The translations under genes were made by a program, and so were the position numbers. Shown in pieces: positions 482-35,047 of a stretch of 60,157 bases of DNA; the first letter of the stretch is position 1, and each line of letters starts with the position of its first letter. This DNA comes from Clostridium sp. (GTDB lineage: Bacteria > Bacteroidota > Bacteroidia > Bacteroidales > Bacteroidaceae). The notes beneath the pieces were generated by a model, which ran no database searches, was not told the DNA's origin, and saw nothing but the letters and a program-made list of their open reading frames with translations. The stretch lies in the NCBI GenBank assembly GCA_023663705.1, contig JAMPGY010000001.1:1-60157 (forward strand), given 5' to 3'.

Positions 482-596
482 CTTACGTACGTGTAACGCA
501 GCAGCTTCAGTAAACGTAACGCGGGTCCTTCAGTAGATGTAACGAGCCTCCTTCAGTAGATGTAACGAAGAACGATAAGTAGACATAATGCAGAAA
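482..596. repeat. five tandem 23-bp imperfect repeats
   Basis: Five consecutive 23-base units begin at 482, 505, 528, 551 and 574. Each starts CTTCAGTA or a variant and contains a GTAACG-like core. Copies 3 and 4 share their first 18 bases; the outer copies are more diverged. The period is not a multiple of three and no gene covers the array, so it is not a protein repeat. It is too short and has no spacers, so it is not CRISPR. Confidence 0.8.
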
Positions 597-623: not shown

Positions 624-681
624 CACAGGTAAGCCCCATGCCAAGCCGCTTACCTGTGACTCATCAAGCCGCTTACCTGTG
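624..681. repeat. short direct and inverted repeats around GCTTACCTGTG
   Basis: The 16-mer AAGCCGCTTACCTGTG occurs at 643-658 and again at 666-681 except for the last base context. Its inverted core CACAGGTAAGC lies at 624-634. The second copy runs into the left arm of the large palindrome, so the region can fold in several alternative ways. Confidence 0.6.
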
Positions 682-721
682 GTTTATCCTCCCGTAAGCT
701 TACGGGAGGATAAACCACAGG
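676..721. repeat. 46-bp perfect palindrome
   Basis: The 23-base arms 676-698 and 699-721 are exact reverse complements with no loop, centred on an AAGCTT site. The sequence contains GGTTTATCCTCCCGTAAG and its complement. Perfect uninterrupted palindromes of this size are unusual in bacterial chromosomes because they extrude as cruciforms. There is no adjoining T-run, so an ordinary terminator is less likely than a mobile-element end, a recombination site or a repeat-family member. Confidence 0.8.
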
Positions 722-1035
722 CTTGTCTAATGCCGTCCCGTTGGCGAGTCCAATACCCCATCCGCAGGCTATTCTAATCTTGTTTGGCTTGCGGAGCATC
801 GGGCGTGCCGGCGGGGCAGGGGTGACCGGGTAGATGACGTAGCTATAATCTGACATGTTCTGCTATCACCGTTGTTATTTGCGTATGCAAATGGAATAGT
901 CTGTCCTTACGAAAGATTTAAATTTTCTTTTTATTTCTATTTGTTTTATAATAGGGGTTTGTGATAAGAAAAAAATGTCCATGTTTGTGTCTGAGATATT
1001 AAAATATAAGGTTTCTATCCTTAAATAGTAACGCA

Positions 1036-1503
1036 ATGAAAGATTTTAAGCCGGAGGATTTTGAATTTACCCCTCGAAATGTTGGTGGGCCGAATTCCAA
1101 TGATTCATCTACGGGACAAGATGAAAACGAAAATAAAAGGGATCTGAATACTTTTTTTAGTGCCTGTCTTTGTCCGACTCAGGTAAATTGTGCCGGTACA
1201 GGGGCATGTACTGCAACTCCAAATACGGATTGCTGTGACATGACAAGGGCTGATGCATGCGTCGAGCCACTTTCGCCCAAATGTACATTTACGTTCGATA
1301 TCCACTGTCAACTTCTGACTACCGACTGTGAAACATCAGTAGGTGAATGCCTTCTTTCTTCTGGTGTGAATTGTGATTTTTCTGTAGACAAATGTTTAAT
1401 TTCCTCAGAAGAGGATTGTCAATTGACTTTAGACCAATGCCCTATTTCCTCTGGAATAGATTGCGGCTTGTCTTTTGATAATTGCATTATTACGGATAAA
1501 TAA
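1036..1503 (+). CDS. cysteine-repeat protein, possible modified-peptide precursor
   Basis: A 155-residue protein of unrecognised family. Residues 1-40 are hydrophilic and acidic, with no signal peptide and no hydrophobic stretch, and include an RNVGGP sequence near residue 15. Residues 44-150 hold 17 cysteines. From about residue 88 the cysteines fall in a regular pattern in which spacings of 7 and 6 alternate, giving a 15-residue period repeated about three and a half times with segments such as CLISSEEDC and CPISSGIDC. The layout of leader plus repeated cysteine core resembles ribosomally made peptide precursors or a metal-binding repeat protein, but no maturation enzyme or exporter is visible nearby. 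The gene is visibly AT-richer than its neighbour at 1630, hinting at separate origin. Function unknown. Confidence 0.75.
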   Translation: MKDFKPEDFEFTPRNVGGPNSNDSSTGQDENENKRDLNTFFSACLCPTQVNCAGTGACTATPNTDCCDMTRADACVEPLSPKCTFTFDIHCQLLTTDCETSVGECLLSSGVNCDFSVDKCLISSEEDCQLTLDQCPISSGIDCGLSFDNCIITDK

Positions 1504-1524
1504 CGCAGGTTTGAATTTTCACCC

Positions 1525-1605
1525 ATGAATAGTCAAAGAATTGAATATAGAGCGTCAGGAGCCTCGCAGGCTGAGGATATGCTAAATGATAAAACGTGTT
1601 TATAA
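1525..1605 (+). CDS. possible 26-residue small protein
   Basis: A short frame beginning ATG at 1525 and ending TAA at 1605, 21 bases after the cysteine-repeat gene. It encodes MNSQRIEYRASGASQAEDM and a short tail ending in DKTCL. There is no strong ribosome site and no family match that I recognise. It is listed because it follows an odd small gene and shares its AT-rich composition; it may be chance. Confidence 0.2.
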   Translation: MNSQRIEYRASGASQAEDMLNDKTCL

Positions 1606-1629: not shown

Positions 1630-4192
1630 ATGCCCATGAAAAAGGAAATATTCTATTTGTTGTGCCTGCTGTTGCAGCCCGCCTCTGCGTGGAGCCAGTA
1701 TCTGACGAGCGTGGACAGCCTTGTGGCGCGCGTTGACAGGCAGCGGGAAGCTTATCCTCAGGAGAAGATTCATGTCACCACGGACCGCAACGCCTACGTG
1801 GCGGGGGACACGGTGTGGATGCGGCTGCATGTGGTGGACGCCTCCACCCACCGTCCGGTGTCCTGGAGCCGGTATGCCTATGTGGAACTGAAGAATCCGT
1901 TCGATTCCGTGGCCCTGCGGGTGCGCATCGCAGAGAAGGACGGGAAGTATACCGGCTATCTTCCGCTGGAGGCGGGTATGCCGGAGGGGGATTACACACT
2001 CACGGCGCACACGATGTTCATGGACAACGCCGGTCCGGACTATCATTTCCGTCGGAGTGTGCGCGTGACCTCGCCCGTGTCCTACCGCAACGAGATACGT
2101 GCGGAGTACGACTGGAAGGGTGAGCGGCTGGAGGCGCGTCTGCGCTACGTGGATCCGGAGACGGGCGAGCCCCGGGCCTACGACAAGATGTGGTATGCCA
2201 CGGCGGACGGCGAGACACATACGCCCGACATTCAGAAGGACGGCACGGTGCGCCTGCGGCTGAAGGCGAAGGAGAGGGGGCGGCTGTACATCCTGGTGGG
2301 GTACGGGGCTAACCACCGCGCCTTCCTGCACCTTCCGTCGCAGCCCGTGCGCGACTTCGACGTGTCGTTCTATCCCGAGGGCGGCTATGCGGTGGTGGGC
2401 GAGACGTGCCGGATGGCGTTCAAGGCTCTGGATGCGGGCGGACAGGGCATCGACGTGCGGGGCCGGGTGTATGACGACACGGGGGCGGAGGCCTGTTCGC
2501 TCTCCACCCTGCATGCCGGCATGGGCGAGTTCCTCTTCACCCCGAAGGAGGGGCGCACGTATCACGCCCGCGTGACGGCTGCCGACGGCATGGAGAAGAC
2601 CTTCGCGCTGCCCGCTGCGACGTGGCCGTGGTGGGGCGATATGCACGCGCGACACGCTGGTGGTGACGGCCAAGGGTGTGTGCCCCGCGGGCAGCTTCTT
2701 CCTCATCCAGCAGCGCGGCAGGGTGCTGGCCTCGGCTCCGGCCGACCGGGCGCAGGGCTTCTCGCCGGAGTGGTTCTCGGACGGCATCGCTCAGATACTG
2801 CTGGTCAGCGCAGAGGCTCGGGTGCTGAGCGAGCGGCTGGTGTTCCTGCATGCCGGAAAGACGCATTCCGTGGAGGTGAGCCGTGACAAGGTGGCGTATG
2901 CCCCGCGCGAGGCGGTGAGGCTTTCGCTGTCCGGCCTTGGCGCGCGGGGTTCTGTGGCGCTGTCGGTGACGGACAGCGGCTCCGATCCGTCGGACGGCCG
3001 GACCGGTATCGCTGCGCAGCTGCTCCTGCAGGGCGAGCTGAAGGGGCGGGTGGACCATCCGGCGTTCTATCTGGCGGAAGGGCATCTCCACGAACTGGAC
3101 CTGCTGATGCTGACGCACGGCTGGCGACGCTACGACCTGCCCGCGGTGCTGTCGGGGAATATCACCCTTCCGCAACAGCCTCTGGAACAGGGGCAGCAGT
3201 TGTGCGGCACAGTGCGGAGCCTGTGGCGCAACCAGCCCCAGGCGGGTGTCAACGTGTCTGCCTTGTCGCCGGGGCGGAGCATAAAGGCTATGGGGCAGAC
3301 CGACGGTGAGGGTCGCTTCGCCCTGGATGTACCGGACTTCCCCGAGGGCACCTCGTTCGTGCTTCAGGCCTTGCGCAACGACGGGAAACCGGAATACAAC
3401 GTGACGTTTGAGGAATATCCGCCTTCGGCCGCCGCCTACGTGGAAGGCCGGTTCCTGTCGTCCGGGGAACGGGGACGAAAGAGCATGATCGACCCGGAAT
3501 ACCAGCGGATAGCGTTCAACCCGTCCCAGCGGGAGATGCTGCTTCCGGAGGTGGTGGTGACCGAGCGCAAGGGGGCATCGGCCATGGAGAATCTGCTGAA
3601 CATCATGGCCCGGCGCACCTTCGACGCCGACTACCTGAAGGACAACCACGTGACCCACATCGATGAGGTGCTGCGCAAGATTGCGGGGATGCAAATCCGG
3701 GAGGAGAAACTTATCTATCGGGCTAATGAAGTGGCCATTATGATAGACGGGGTAATCATGGAGAACCCTTTAGCCAATAAAGCCACCTTTGCCAATTTTG
3801 ATGATTCGCAAACCAAAAAGAAGAGTATGCACAGAGTCCGTGTCCAACAGCCCGGTGTGCTCTTGACAACGCCGTTTACGGATTTGAAGGAATCCTTGCC
3901 GATGAGTCTGATAAAGCGTATAGATTTCATACCATCCTATATGGCCGTTGTGTTCGGTCCTAAGGGTACTGGGGGTGGAATTTTGAGCGTCACCACCAAG
4001 CGGGGCGATGACCTTGTGAACGATAATGTGCCTCTTCCCATTCAGGTGATTAATCCGCTGGGCACCCAGACGCCGGACGAGAACGGACGCGCCGTGGTGC
4101 CCTTCCATATGCCCGATAATGTACCCGCCGGCTGGAACATCGTGGTGGAGGGACTGGCGGAGGACGGAAGCGTGATAGAGCTGTCCCGTTGA
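1630..4192 (+). pseudogene. frameshifted TonB-plug/MG2-domain protein
   Basis: Two abutting frames make up one protein of about 850 residues. The first (from 1630) has a signal peptide, then the segment around KIHVTTDRNAYVAGD typical of the MG2-like domain of Bacteroidota surface proteins. The second (continuing to 4192) holds the LTHGWRRYDL motif, a carboxypeptidase-like segment, and a TonB-receptor plug-like end after LPEVVVTERK. It has no beta-barrel, as in its relatives. Homology reads naturally in frame 1 to about 2618 and in frame 2 from DTLVVTAKG at 2651. The shift therefore lies in the GC-rich stretch 2615-2655, and may be a true mutation or a sequencing error. It is probably a periplasm or outer-membrane associated protein; substrate unknown. 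Confidence 0.8.
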
Positions 4193-6141: not shown

Positions 6142-6924
6142 GTGGCTGATTCTGTTTTATTTGACACGGAGATTCAGGGTCTGCTCGCCGAGCTGTCCCC
6201 GATAACGTTGGAGCAAATGTCGTGTATCCGTCTGATGAACCGCACGGACACGAAGTTTGTCACCAACAAGTCTACGCTGGTAAAGCTGCTCCGGCGGGCT
6301 CAGGGCAAATATTACGCCCAGGAAATAGAGGGCAACAGGGTGGCCAACTACCGCACCATCTATTGGGACACGGACGCCCACTATTTCTATCTGGAGCACC
6401 ACAACGGACGGGCACCGCGCCAGAAGGTGAGGGTGAGGACATATCTCGACTCGGACATCACCTTTCTGGAGGTGAAGACGAAGAACAACCATTCGCGCAC
6501 GAAGAAGAAGCGCATCATGGTGCCGGCGCCCGACCGCCTGGTGGAGGCCGGTGGCGACTCCTTTCTGCAGGAGTTGGTGAGAAGGGGACTGGACGACCTG
6601 CATCCCACGGTGCAAAACCGCTTCCAGCGCATCACGCTGGTCAACTACGGCAAGACGGAACGTCTGACCATCGACTTCAACGTGGAGTTTCTCAACCTGG
6701 AGACCGGACGCACGTCCGGCACGGGCAATCTGGTGATTATCGAGCTTAAGCGCGACGGAAACTGCTTCTCGCCTGTGCTGGACATTTTGCGCGAGTTACG
6801 CGTGCAGCCCTCGGGATTCAGCAAATATTGCATCGGGTCGGTGCTCACCAACGAAGCGCTGAAGCGGAATATGTTTAAGGAAAAACTTGTGAATATTAAT
6901 CGTTTGGTAAATAAAATCATTTAA
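6142..6924 (+). CDS. VTC-domain polyphosphate polymerase
   Basis: A 260-residue soluble protein of the VTC family, whose yeast member Vtc4 polymerises ATP gamma-phosphates into polyphosphate inside a triphosphate-tunnel barrel. Tunnel-type basic and acidic residues are visible: NRTDTKF (Lys38), RQKVRVR (Arg97, Arg99), LEVK (109-112), KKKR (121-124) and IELK (200-203). No transmembrane segment; a membrane anchor is probably supplied by the next gene, a DUF4956 protein. The start is GTG at 6142; no ATG lies close to it. First gene of a tightly packed operon running to 10163. Bacterial members are widely annotated as polyphosphate polymerases but product specificity is inferred. Confidence 0.88.
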   Translation: MADSVLFDTEIQGLLAELSPITLEQMSCIRLMNRTDTKFVTNKSTLVKLLRRAQGKYYAQEIEGNRVANYRTIYWDTDAHYFYLEHHNGRAPRQKVRVRTYLDSDITFLEVKTKNNHSRTKKKRIMVPAPDRLVEAGGDSFLQELVRRGLDDLHPTVQNRFQRITLVNYGKTERLTIDFNVEFLNLETGRTSGTGNLVIIELKRDGNCFSPVLDILRELRVQPSGFSKYCIGSVLTNEALKRNMFKEKLVNINRLVNKII

Positions 6925-6933
6925 ACAATACGT

Positions 6934-7620
6934 ATGGATATATTGAACGAAGGCGCACTCTCGGTGGTGACGTTTATGAACATGCCTCTTATCGACCTGG
7001 AGGGCTTATTGGAGTTATTGACACGCTTCCTGATAAATATGGTGGTGATAGGGGTGATCGTGAAGTGCTTCTATTACCCCAAAAGCCGTCGGCGCGACTA
7101 TCTGTTTGCCTTCATGCTGCTGTCGGTGAGCATTTTCCTGCTCATCTATCTGATGGAAGGCTCCAAATTGAAAATCGGTGCTGCGTTGGGGCTGTTTGCC
7201 ATCTTCGGCATCATCCGTTACCGCACGGAGGCCATTCCCATCCGCGAGATGACCTATCTGTTCTACCTGGTGTCGCTGTCCGTCATCAACGGCATGGCCA
7301 CCAAGTTGAGTCTGGCCGAACTGCTGCTGGCCAATGTCATCTTCATCGGCGTGGCCTGGATGTTTGAAAGCAACCGTCTGGTGCACCACGTGTGCAGCAA
7401 GTACATCCGTTACGACAACGTCAACCTGATTCAGCCCGAGAAACGGGGTGAACTGATCGCCGATCTGGAGCGTCGCACCGGATTGAAAATCATTCGCCTG
7501 GATGTGGGCGCCATCGACTTCCTGAAAGATAGTGTGCTCATCCGCATCTACTATAACGAGACGGAACCCACGAACAACACGATGGAAGATGTTACCAAAT
7601 TGCCTAAAAGTTATGAGTAG
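6934..7620 (+). CDS. DUF4956 membrane protein
   Basis: 228 residues with about five membrane segments (roughly 30-50, 56-74, 80-95, 106-122, 126-144) and a soluble C-terminal domain of about 80 residues. The short cytoplasmic motif GIIRYRTEAIPIREMTYLF between segments is the family hallmark. DUF4956 proteins are regularly found next to VTC-domain polymerases, so a role as anchor or exit channel for the polymer is an attractive inference. It starts 10 bases after the polymerase and overlaps the next gene by 8 bases. Confidence 0.85.
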   Translation: MDILNEGALSVVTFMNMPLIDLEGLLELLTRFLINMVVIGVIVKCFYYPKSRRRDYLFAFMLLSVSIFLLIYLMEGSKLKIGAALGLFAIFGIIRYRTEAIPIREMTYLFYLVSLSVINGMATKLSLAELLLANVIFIGVAWMFESNRLVHHVCSKYIRYDNVNLIQPEKRGELIADLERRTGLKIIRLDVGAIDFLKDSVLIRIYYNETEPTNNTMEDVTKLPKSYE

Positions 7621-8440
7621 AAGGTGGCAACGGGCTGTAGCCTGCGTGGCGGCTCTGTGGCTTTTTGTTCCGCAGGGGATGAAAGCGGGAGGCAGAGATG
7701 ACTTCGGGGTGTGGACGGAACTCGAGGCTACCAAGCTGTTACCCTACGGTCTGTCAGTGTCTGTCGGGGGGGAATTCCGCACCAAGGATCTGTCGAAAAG
7801 CGTGGACCGCTGGAGCGGTGAATTGGGCATCGGGTACAAGCCGCTGTCTTTTCTCAAGTTCGGTGCGTCCTACACCTATATCTATGAGTTCAACGCCGGC
7901 GAGCGAAAGGAACACTACAAGGACGACACCGGACTGGAAGCTGACTGGAACGGATGGAACTGGACCGACCATTATTGGGCGCAGAAACACCGCTTCCAGG
8001 GCGACATGACGCTGAGCACCAAGATAGACGGGGTGCTCAAGGTGACGCTGCGCGAGCGCTACCAGTACACCCACCGCGGCGAACAGGATGTGGACCGCAT
8101 GAAGTACCGCTTCAAGAAGGATAAACTCACCCCCAAGCCCGGATATCCGCGTCAGGATGTGAAGCAGAAGGCTGAGAAAAAGACGCAGTATCTGCGCTCG
8201 CGCCTGAAACTGGAACTGGACAAGAAGAAGTGGCGCCTGACCCCCTATGTGGGCATGGAACTTTACAACGACCTGGACGACGGGTGGCGTCTTGATAAAA
8301 CGAAGTTTACCGCCGGTGTTTCCTACAAAGTGGTCAAGCATCATACCCTGTCGCTCGGCTATATGTTCAACAATGATATCGACGAGGATCCCTACGAAGG
8401 CATGCACGCGCTCAACATAGGTTACTCGTTCAAGTTTTAA
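7613..8440 (+). CDS. DUF2490 outer membrane beta-barrel protein
   Basis: 275 residues from the ATG at 7613, which overlaps the stop of the DUF4956 gene (ATGAGTAG). The N-terminal hydrophobic stretch (ACVAALWLFVPQ) is a signal peptide. The rest alternates aromatic and polar residues in amphipathic strands (for example SLSVGGEF, LKFGASYTYIYEF, HTLSLGYMF) and ends in phenylalanine, as outer-membrane barrels do. Matches the DUF2490 pattern. Presence in this operon suggests the system spans the whole envelope. Confidence 0.75.
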   Translation: MSRRWQRAVACVAALWLFVPQGMKAGGRDDFGVWTELEATKLLPYGLSVSVGGEFRTKDLSKSVDRWSGELGIGYKPLSFLKFGASYTYIYEFNAGERKEHYKDDTGLEADWNGWNWTDHYWAQKHRFQGDMTLSTKIDGVLKVTLRERYQYTHRGEQDVDRMKYRFKKDKLTPKPGYPRQDVKQKAEKKTQYLRSRLKLELDKKKWRLTPYVGMELYNDLDDGWRLDKTKFTAGVSYKVVKHHTLSLGYMFNNDIDEDPYEGMHALNIGYSFKF

Positions 8441-8466
8441 ATATAATAAAGGAGAAAAAACACAAT

Positions 8467-8943
8467 ATGAAAAGACAAATAATGGCTTTGGCGCTGATGG
8501 GATGCAGTGCATGCCACACAGTGGTGGCACAGAGCAGGGATTATCTGACGATTCAGACCACACAGACGGAACGGAGCATTGCGCTGGCCAACCTGAAGAA
8601 AATCACTTTCAGCGGCAGCCAACTCATCGCCGATACCGGTGCGGGCGAACTCGCGTTTGACTTGGTCGACATGAAGAAACTTTATTTCGCCGACACGCCG
8701 TCGGCTATCAGTGGGGTGAAGGCTGCCGGTGCTGCTGCGGTGAGCTACGACCGCATGGCCGAGTGTATCCGTGTGGAAGGTAACGAAGGCCGCCTGCAGG
8801 TGACGGTGTACTCTATCAACGGTGCGCAGTGGGTGAACACGAATGTGGAACCGGGCGGAGGTGAAGTGAACGTCTCGACATGGCCCAAGGGGATATATAT
8901 AGTGAAGACGAATGGTGGAACCTTAAAATTCAGCAAACAATGA
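8467..8943 (+). CDS. small secreted protein with sorting-like C-terminus
   Basis: 158 residues. Residues 1-22 are a signal peptide (ends VVAQ). The middle is a short beta-rich segment with KKITFSG and DMKKLYF motifs. The last 65 residues look like a type IX secretion type A sorting domain: the VYSINGAQ core followed by WPKGIYIVKTNGGTLKFSKQ-like residues, close to the consensus found in other Bacteroidota secreted proteins. Its stop overlaps the next start (ATGA at 8940), so the two are translationally coupled. Function unknown. Confidence 0.7.
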   Translation: MKRQIMALALMGCSACHTVVAQSRDYLTIQTTQTERSIALANLKKITFSGSQLIADTGAGELAFDLVDMKKLYFADTPSAISGVKAAGAAAVSYDRMAECIRVEGNEGRLQVTVYSINGAQWVNTNVEPGGGEVNVSTWPKGIYIVKTNGGTLKFSKQ

Positions 8944-10163
8944 AGAAGTTTTTAGCGTTGTGCCTGCTGGCAGTCGGCTTGCCCGTTCTCGCACAGCAAA
9001 ACGTATACATCTGGCAGGGAGGAGACTTTGACAAGGTGGTGCTTGCGCCCACCGAAGATATGCCGTTCACCAATGCCGGAAACACCATCACGATAGGCGG
9101 CAAGGCCTACGATGTGAATCTGATAGACAGCCTGACGTTTGCCACTCCCGTGCTGGACAAAACCGGCAAAGTGGTGGTGAGTTATGCCGGCGGTCAGGCC
9201 ACGGTGTCCATTCCGGCCGGAGTGAGTGGTGTGACAGCCAGTGTGAGTGGAGCACATGTGCAACTCACCTCTACCAACATCACCGATGAGTTGGAATATG
9301 TGCTCGAGGGAGCGTCTGCAAACGGCTCGCTCACCTACACGGGATCCTACAAATGCAAGTTTTATCTCAACGGGCTGCAACTGACCTCTGCCCAAGGGGC
9401 TGCGATCGACATCCAATGCGGCAAGCGTATCGACCTGGTGCTGTTTGAAGGTACCTCCAACACGCTGACCGACTGTGTGGGGGGACTCCAGAAGGCTACC
9501 CTCTATTGCAAGGGACATCTGGAGGTGAAAGGCGGTGGCACACTCACAGTGACCGGGCGCACCAAGCATGCCATCAGCAGCAAGGAATACCTCATCGTGA
9601 AAAAGTCGGTGGGCAAGATAGCCGTGGCCGGTGCCGTGAGCGACGGTATCCACTGCGGTCAGTATTTCCAGATGAACGGCGGCGAGGTGGACATCACCAA
9701 CGTGCAGGGCGACGGCATCCAGGCCGAGGAACTGCTCGACCCCACCAAGGAACTTGACGGACAGATGATTATCCAGGGTGGTGTCATCCGGATAGACGTG
9801 CCGGGAGCCGATGTGAAGGGCTTGAAGTGCGACATGGATCTCACCATCTCGGGCGGCAAGATAGACATTGACGTGACCGGCAACGGTTCCAAGGGTATCA
9901 GCACCAACGCCAGTATGACAGTGGGCGAGGAAGACGGCCCGACGGACATCACCGTACTGGCACGCGGCGGCAAACTGCCTGACCCGGCCGGAGGCACCAC
10001 CAAGTGCATGGGCATCAAGGTAGACTACAACCTCACCGTCACCGGCGGACGCATCACGGTGAAACCCACCGGCGATGACGCACGCGGCATCAAGGTGGAC
10101 GGCACCTATTACTATCGGGGCGGTACGGTGACTCCCGAACCGGACGCCGTGGCCAAGGGTTGA
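8940..10163 (+). CDS. DUF4353 secreted carbohydrate-binding-like protein
   Basis: 407 residues; signal peptide ends at VLAQ. A short N-terminal segment (to about residue 65) has the same type of motifs (DSLTFATP) as the previous gene's product. The remainder is a right-handed beta-helix type repeat with turns such as GAAIDIQCGKRIDLVLFEG, KHAISSKEYLIVKKS and GDGIQAEELL, the pattern of DUF4353, annotated as a carbohydrate-binding domain. DUF4353 proteins often co-occur with VTC-domain and DUF4956 genes in other phyla, which supports a functional link. Last gene of the operon; a strong hairpin follows at 10187. Confidence 0.82.
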   Translation: MKKFLALCLLAVGLPVLAQQNVYIWQGGDFDKVVLAPTEDMPFTNAGNTITIGGKAYDVNLIDSLTFATPVLDKTGKVVVSYAGGQATVSIPAGVSGVTASVSGAHVQLTSTNITDELEYVLEGASANGSLTYTGSYKCKFYLNGLQLTSAQGAAIDIQCGKRIDLVLFEGTSNTLTDCVGGLQKATLYCKGHLEVKGGGTLTVTGRTKHAISSKEYLIVKKSVGKIAVAGAVSDGIHCGQYFQMNGGEVDITNVQGDGIQAEELLDPTKELDGQMIIQGGVIRIDVPGADVKGLKCDMDLTISGGKIDIDVTGNGSKGISTNASMTVGEEDGPTDITVLARGGKLPDPAGGTTKCMGIKVDYNLTVTGGRITVKPTGDDARGIKVDGTYYYRGGTVTPEPDAVAKG

Positions 10164-34562: not shown

Positions 34563-35047
34563 TCCGTGTATTGGACATTATCGAGGAAACTATGGTAGAC
34601 GGTCCGGGGTTCCGGACCGCTATTTATGTGGCGGGATGCGAACATGCCTGTCCCGGTTGTCATAACCCGCAGTCGTGGAGTCGTGAAGGTGGTCGGCCGA
34701 TGCCGGTGGAGGAATTGCTGGAACTTGTGGAGCGTGATGAATGGGCGGATGTCACGTTGACCGGTGGAGACCCGTTTTATCAGGCGGAGGAGGTGGCCGA
34801 TTTGGCTCGTGCCATCAAACAACGTACTTGTAAGAGCGTGTGGTGTTACACCGGTTTCCGTTACGAGCAGATAGTGACTCATGCTGAGATGAAGAAGTTG
34901 TTGCTATGGATTGACGTTTTGGTTGACGGTCCTTATGTGGCAGCTTTGCGTACCACAGAACTACCCTTCCGGGGAAGCAGCAACCAGCGTTTGATCGATG
35001 TTCCGGCTTCTTTGTCCGCTGGTGAGGTTGTGTGCTATGAATTATAG
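34559..35047 (+). CDS. nrdG: anaerobic ribonucleotide reductase-activating protein
   Basis: 162 residues from the ATG at 34559. It is a radical-SAM activase that installs the glycyl radical on NrdD. The iron-sulfur CX3CX2C motif is Cys27, Cys31 and Cys34 (GCEHACPGCHN), with the DGPGFRTAIYVAG leader and the GGDPFYQ segment of AdoMet binding. It is coupled to nrdD and followed by two hairpins. Confidence 0.96.
   Translation: MIRVLDIIEETMVDGPGFRTAIYVAGCEHACPGCHNPQSWSREGGRPMPVEELLELVERDEWADVTLTGGDPFYQAEEVADLARAIKQRTCKSVWCYTGFRYEQIVTHAEMKKLLLWIDVLVDGPYVAALRTTELPFRGSSNQRLIDVPASLSAGEVVCYEL

Follow-up and report, generated by a model that had tools for sequence, protein, structure and literature searches.

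The window analysed here, the first 60,157 bases of contig C11 (333,589 bases; position 1 is the contig start), contains near this end an intact gene for a 155-residue protein with 17 cysteines, many of them set in a 15-residue repeat. Judged from sequence, this looks like a real gene of a narrow lineage, as argued by its codon-position pattern, the length of its reading frame and a promoter-like site in front of it. Its product may, as we tentatively propose, be an acidic, cytosolic repeat protein with a cysteine ladder, lineage-specific and encoded by a probably acquired gene. The host genome (2.74 Mb in 43 contigs) is rated 96.4% complete and, to judge by its genes, probably belongs to a Bacteroidota. 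What the first-pass annotation observed about the gene as a whole is confirmed, and its interpretation is partly supported.

Layout of the gene and its product

The features of the region are collected in Table 1. The 155-codon ATG frame, the 17 cysteines and the 26-codon frame behind the gene are all present as first described, and the latter frame is probably not a gene. Cysteine accounts for 11% of the product and is odd in number. All 17 cysteines fall within the 112 residues 44–155 and none within residues 1–43, and the protein has one histidine. The front had been called acidic; it is Cys-free over 43 residues, but its acidity is mild (9 Asp/Glu, 5 Lys/Arg), and the cysteine part is the more acidic of the two (17 Asp/Glu, 4 Lys/Arg). 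Hydropathy reveals no hydrophobic N-terminal stretch or signal peptide, as had been stated: of all 11-residue windows that begin within residues 1–35, the most hydrophobic has a Kyte-Doolittle mean of 0.41.

Table 1. Features at the left end of the window (positions within the window).
Feature	Position	Strand	Basis
Intergenic-element copy, start cut by contig end	1–725		blastn to contig C8 (L045), MAFFT extension
23-bp tandem repeat, 3.3 copies, within the element	492–567		Tandem Repeats Finder
Perfect 46-bp palindrome within the element	676–721		inverted-repeat search
Promoter-like site: TTTG, 18 bases, CATGTTTG	958–987	+	pattern scan; ends 48 bases before the ATG
Cys-repeat protein ORF, 155 aa	1036–1503	+	intact ATG frame, 155 codons
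Residues 1–43, Cys-free, mildly acidic, without signal peptide	1036–1164	+	composition, hydropathy
Residues 44–155, part with 17 Cys	1165–1500	+	segment and period analysis
Residues 105–155, three regular 15-residue units (x7/x6) and one partial	1348–1500	+	period analysis
26-codon frame	1525–1605	+	ORF listing; no NCBIfam match
MG2-domain/plug-like gene	1630–4192	+	MG2 above cut-off; Plug 17.6 bits, below cut-off 23.9

The cysteine repeat

The gaps between the 17 cysteines measure 1, 5, 5, 7, 0, 7, 7, 7, 6, 6, 7, 6, 7, 6, 7 and 6 residues, and the mean spacing is near 7.5 residues. The first five are irregular; the last seven (Cys98 to Cys150) alternate strictly between 6 and 7, which bears out the reported 7/6 alternation with a 15-residue period. 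Comparing the sequence from Cys44 onward with itself at offset 15 gives 26 identities, where shuffled sequences average 7.2; in 20,000 shuffles, no offset between 5 and 30 yielded as many. The pattern had been placed in the back half with the near-consensus C-x-(I/L)-S-S-x-x-(D/N)-C. The regular 6/7 spacing is indeed found there, but the motif is wider: 15 of the 17 Cys-to-Cys segments, across the whole cysteine part, are 6–8 residues long, with the typical form C-x-(hydrophobic)-(S/T)-...-(D/N). Segments of this common kind include CDMTRADA, CTFTFDIH, CLLSSGVN, CDFSVDK, CLISSEED, CQLTLDQ, CPISSGID and CGLSFDN, and others, e.g., CVEPLSPK and CPTQVN, fit poorly. Ser or Thr stands at +3 of 12 of the 17 cysteines (shuffle mean 4.1; 0 of 20,000 shuffles as high) and at −4 of nine; Leu, Ile, Phe, Met, Val or Ala is found at +2 of 11 (24 of 20,000 shuffles) and Asp or Asn at −1 or −2 of 11 (5 of 20,000). 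Because the positions +2, +3 and −1/−2 were picked after the sequence had been viewed, and because the units are themselves related, these figures express the strength of the pattern and do not describe independent events.

Evidence for a real gene and for its acquisition

Agreement between the three regular 45-base units is highest at second codon positions (13, 13 and 11 of 15, or 37/45), lower at first positions (8, 11 and 10 of 15, or 29/45) and lowest at third positions (8, 6 and 6 of 15, or 20/45). Together with the finding that Tandem Repeats Finder detected no 45-bp tandem array in positions 1–2000, this order suggests a repeat that was kept at the protein level rather than a young DNA minisatellite, and we read it as a mark of protein-level constraint. 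An ATG frame of at least 155 codons arose in one of 2000 dinucleotide shuffles of positions 880–1625. The Bacteroides promoter consensus is TANNTTTG; the pattern used here, TTTG N17-24 NANNTTTG, was loosened at the first base of the consensus, as the site at 958–987 fails to match otherwise; it occurs 18 times in the window, where 5.25 occurrences are expected. No match to it lies between 988 and 5966, so the MG2/plug gene downstream might share the promoter of the cysteine-repeat ORF. A sigma-70 style scan of positions 1–1700 returned five sites against 2.7 expected, and no terminator was found in the same range.

The gene is AT-richer than its surroundings, as had been noted: its GC content is 0.41, that of the window as a whole 0.54, and the sequence on either side of the gene is more GC-rich. 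By codon position the values are 0.44, 0.47 and 0.31, and the last of these, compared with 0.54–0.81 in nine host genes, suggests that the gene was probably acquired. Its codon-adaptation-like value is 0.50 against 0.66–0.82 in the nine host genes, which were also the reference.

Search for relatives

The search for homologs with the same cysteine period that had been proposed as a check yielded no credible relative in genomes, contigs, phages, plasmids, Pfam, NCBIfam or PDB, and every search made agrees with the earlier remark that no family with this layout was known. The protein had no match at E 10 in Pfam, NCBIfam or the PDB sequences. Matches were obtained in three of 101 genomes when its own genome and 100 relatives were searched (itself and two rejected), in two of 393 genomes of the order (itself and one rejected) and in two of 395 genomes of the phylum (itself and one rejected); these samples overlap and comprise one genome per species. 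The rejected candidates comprised a short tandem DNA repeat matched in three frames, with VNCQLS spelled in two of the frames listed (G031), a match with an internal stop that overlaps an ORF in another frame (G059), a further match with a stop inside, judged by eye (G109), and two frames over a tandem DNA repeat (G699). With the 45-residue leader alone, only the protein itself was found among 399 family genomes. Pattern searches returned 21 stretches in GTDB contigs and four in IMG/VR, none confirmed as a relative, in searches that reach close relatives only and may omit the gene's own genome. Phages and plasmids gave no credible relative, whether the protein or the DNA of positions 1–1640 was compared, and neither did PADLOC; in PHROGs a match to phrog_13588 at E 0.096 was taken as chance.

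The spacing of seven cysteines at x7/x6 occurs in at least 120 stretches of viral contigs and at least 118 of GTDB contigs, with at least 328 matching frames in them. None of the matches listed carries the unit motif, and their frames are Cys-saturated or tandem low-complexity. One of them (L205) has Ser/Thr at −4 of all seven cysteines but is saturated with Cys, Arg and Ser and was rejected; another (L078), a frame of 101 residues made up of tandem units that are almost identical, also has Ser/Thr at −4 of 7/7 cysteines. In the literature, no protein with this cysteine layout is described in the titles or abstract openings of a small sample of papers.

Genomic surroundings

The gap beside the gene had been described as palindrome-rich. 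The 46-bp palindrome and three other inverted repeats are present in positions 1–1640, but the gap is a copy of a repeated element that also occurs on contig C8 (L045). Positions 4–163 and 225–537 match that contig with 68% identity over 161 and 314 aligned positions (blastn), and in a MAFFT alignment the likeness continues across the palindromes as far as about 725. Shorter matches (36–94 bases) turned up at three more loci (L320, L286 and L321, the last one weak, E 0.001) within the 185 kb of this genome that the comparison covered. Rfam miRNA matches at 674–723 are below the gathering score and reflect only the palindrome hairpin. As these alignments indicate, both the palindromes and the 23-bp repeats are explained by a repeated element some 700 bases long, which may also lie behind the contig break. 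Since these repeats belong to the element, what is special at this place is the AT-rich block of about 740–1625 between the element and the MG2 gene. On C8 the element copy (L045, about 6490–7220) ends shortly before a 30% identical MG2/plug paralog; the element thus stands directly before an MG2/plug gene on C8, whereas in the window the cysteine-repeat block stands between the two.

The MG2/plug-like gene changes frame between about 2630 and 2660, an interruption that may be real or an assembly error; uninterrupted relatives occur elsewhere, the best of them 48% identical. At five loci of other genomes (L037–L041), where ORFs of at least 40 aa were listed if longer than 100 aa or above 4% Cys, no gene with the cysteine repeat is listed beside MG2/plug relatives, and the few short Cys-rich frames are without the repeat. 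A genus relative (G010, contig C24; L042 and L043) carries an array of at least eight long MG2/plug-like ORFs over 28 kb, and short ORFs between some of them have fronts that look lipoprotein-signal-like by eye.

The gene rsgA is present in 17 of 18 genus genomes, the own one included, and its neighbourhood was compared in 14 of the 16 relatives carrying it. In 13 of these 14, rsgA is followed on this side by an ORF of 154–158 aa and/or one of 331–332 aa, with first residues alike, which we take for NfeD- and FloA-like; just one of the pair is listed at L307, L308, L309 and L313, and neither at L315. These presumed NfeD-/FloA-like ORFs are absent from the corresponding place in the window, so the place of the cysteine-repeat gene looks lineage-specific.

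RiPP machinery in the genome

At E 0.001 the genome gave no match to LanC-like (PF05147), C39 peptidase (PF03412), YcaO (PF02624) or MNIO (PF05114) models, for which control searches were positive in 1, 8, 5 and 2 of 14 genomes, respectively. The partner expected for a lanthipeptide precursor (LanC), a double-glycine or PCAT-exported peptide (C39), a YcaO-modified peptide or an MNIO-modified Cys peptide was thus not seen. The same searches cover the window, and no modifying enzyme was recognised in it downstream of the gene. There are 17 radical SAM matches in the genome, 16 of them over the cut-off, and the only one inside the window (34628–34864) is presumably an NrdG-type activase, which it resembles. 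Five of the 17 proteins were scanned against NCBIfam; the other twelve we take, from their sequence, for non-RiPP enzymes. Among the five, L298 is the CXXX-repeat maturase TIGR04115 (636 bits, cut-off 350), with PapB as second-best family (185.8 bits, below the cut-off of 340), L290 is an anaerobic sulfatase maturase and L300 is YgiQ-like; none reaches the CefB or PapB cut-off. L289 (G000, contig C11, about 179 kb) is a B12-type, HpnJ-like radical SAM protein at 363 bits, below the cut-off of 577.6. L294 (G000, contig C15, 1768–2154), a radical SAM protein of 346 residues, reaches no NCBIfam cut-off; it adjoins an ORF that we assume to be RecA-like, and no cysteine-repeat gene is listed in its neighbourhood.

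Contig C24 carries a CXXX-repeat RiPP cluster (7124–9957, minus strand; L320) with a TIGR04117-type precursor, the TIGR04115 enzyme L298, and TIGR04119 and TIGR04116 proteins. The precursor (TIGR04117 at 50.1 bits, cut-off 50) is 103 residues long, with 13 cysteines arranged as CXXX repeats and an RR pair in its front; it shows no meaningful similarity to the cysteine-repeat protein (best BLASTP E 0.58). Nine selected Bacteroidales RiPP clusters include a C39 transporter in seven cases and a radical SAM enzyme in eight, and lanthipeptide biosynthesis is called not a common Bacteroidales trait (PMC10352776). PapB accepts Cys-Asp distances of 0 to 6 if the substrate carries a leader (PMC9413430), a tolerance that leaves a trans-acting maturation of the cysteine-repeat protein barely open.

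Possible nature of the protein

We infer expression, fold, location and function of the protein as follows. Residues 44–155 would form a stack of 6–8 residue turns, mostly starting with Cys and having a hydrophobic residue at +2, Ser/Thr at +3 and Asp/Asn near the end. Cysteines and hydrophobic residues at alternate positions would fit short strands of a two-sided solenoid, with the cysteines forming a ladder inside, like the buried, reduced ones of cytosolic leucine-rich or pentapeptide repeats. Residues 1–43 would be a flexible tail, and the protein would stay in the cytosol and bind through a rigid, acidic surface to a partner that might itself bind nucleic acids. The 15-residue period and unit motif far above shuffles, the repeat kept at the protein level, the placing of the promoter-like site, the acidic core and the hydropathy of a protein with no signal peptide favour a cysteine-ladder protein. 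Against it stand the single-sequence AlphaFold2 prediction, which yielded no model of use (a mean pLDDT of 35.9 over all 155 residues and of 48.4 over residues 75–155), the irregular first five gaps, the Pfam and PDB searches with no match at E 10, and the want of a relative to show conservation of the units.

We consider it rather unlikely that the gene is a young or decaying orphan that has no settled function and arrived with AT-rich DNA next to the repeat element. The searches with no relatives, the AT-richness, the GC3 and codon-adaptation-like values outside the range of the nine host (and reference) genes, the other genes beside rsgA in 13 of the 14 genus relatives compared, and the adjoining gene with its interrupted frame all fit such an origin; but the frame is intact and the first two codon positions have preserved the repeat as the third diverged, a state that is difficult to account for unless selection has acted after the repeats arose. 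We regard as unlikely that the protein is a RiPP precursor, one of the functions offered in the first-pass annotation, in which residues 1–43 would serve as leader and the cysteines of residues 44–155 would be linked by an enzyme to nearby Ser/Thr or Asp, giving a chain of small rings. The sharp split of the sequence (0 of 17 cysteines in residues 1–43), the Ser/Thr at +3 of 12 and −4 of 9 of the 17 cysteines and the Asp/Asn shortly before 11 of them would suit such a precursor, and the same genome has a CXXX-repeat RiPP system as well as L294, the radical SAM protein below all NCBIfam cut-offs. The second-best score of L298 for PapB also points this way, given the Cys-Asp distances reported for PapB (PMC9413430). 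The proposal is nevertheless weakened, because a genome rated 96.4% complete has no LanC, YcaO, C39 or MNIO match and its sole recognised RiPP-type radical SAM gene, on another contig, has beside it a different precursor with an unlike front; moreover, all but two of the nine Bacteroidales clusters in PMC10352776 have the C39 transporter that is unmatched here.

The two other functions put forward earlier appear very doubtful. A thiol or metal buffer, in which the 17 cysteines would hold zinc, copper or iron-sulfur clusters, would agree with the high cysteine content, the acidity and the missing signal peptide. However, metallothioneins have CxC/CxxC clusters, and the 16 gaps here include one CxC, one CC and no CxxC, so that the regular 6–7 residue gaps make a metal store weak; with them go recurring hydrophobic and Ser/Thr residues, needless for a plain metal store, and a single histidine. 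An exported, disulfide-bonded repeat protein that leaves by a route without a Sec signal is just as improbable. The even cysteine spacing would fit a disulfide ladder of the type seen in insect antifreeze solenoids; yet there is no signal peptide, no C39 peptidase match and an odd number of cysteines, and the secreted protein suggested before finds no support in the sequence.

Comparison with known systems

The CXXX-repeat targets (TIGR04117/TIGR04114), found in the same genome, are likewise small, and in them, too, a front free of Cys precedes a long part with periodic Cys. They differ from the cysteine-repeat protein in having Cys every four residues, whereas its mean spacing is near 7.5 with no gap of 3 among 16, and in having a front with an RR pair and TIGR04115/04119/04116 encoded adjacent, whereas its front is different and none of these was seen in the window; in NCBIfam at E 10 it matches neither TIGR04117 nor TIGR04114. 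The Cys-every-fifth (CefB; layout taken from the name of the model) and ranthipeptide (PapB) substrates are also Cys-periodic, the latter also with Asp near Cys, but their spacing is another one. Class I/II lanthipeptides, too, have Ser/Thr at a fixed distance before many cysteines, but the genome studied here has no LanC match. Cys-ladder solenoids (insect antifreeze, leucine-rich, pentapeptide) share the short unit in which set positions are taken by Cys or hydrophobic residues; their unit length and motif differ, and the protein has no Pfam or PDB match at E 10.

To our knowledge, the small proteins with periodic cysteines described so far are either substrates of radical SAM enzymes, in which the period is 4 or 5, or solenoids whose ladders are buried. 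It is a long shot that the protein represents a new Cys-periodic class with a unit C-x-(hydrophobic)-(S/T)-...-(D/N) of 7–8 residues, which would either be serially cross-linked (Cys to Ser/Thr or Asp), with an unrecognised enzyme or else the genome's CXXX maturase working in trans as the catalyst, or fold as a new Cys-ladder solenoid. A protein so regularly spaced, at about 7.5 residues, for which neither a relative nor a known maturase was found, would be a new scaffold or a new modification substrate. Should the gene be just an unsettled orphan, it would still illustrate a repeat protein that selection has apparently maintained within a narrow lineage.
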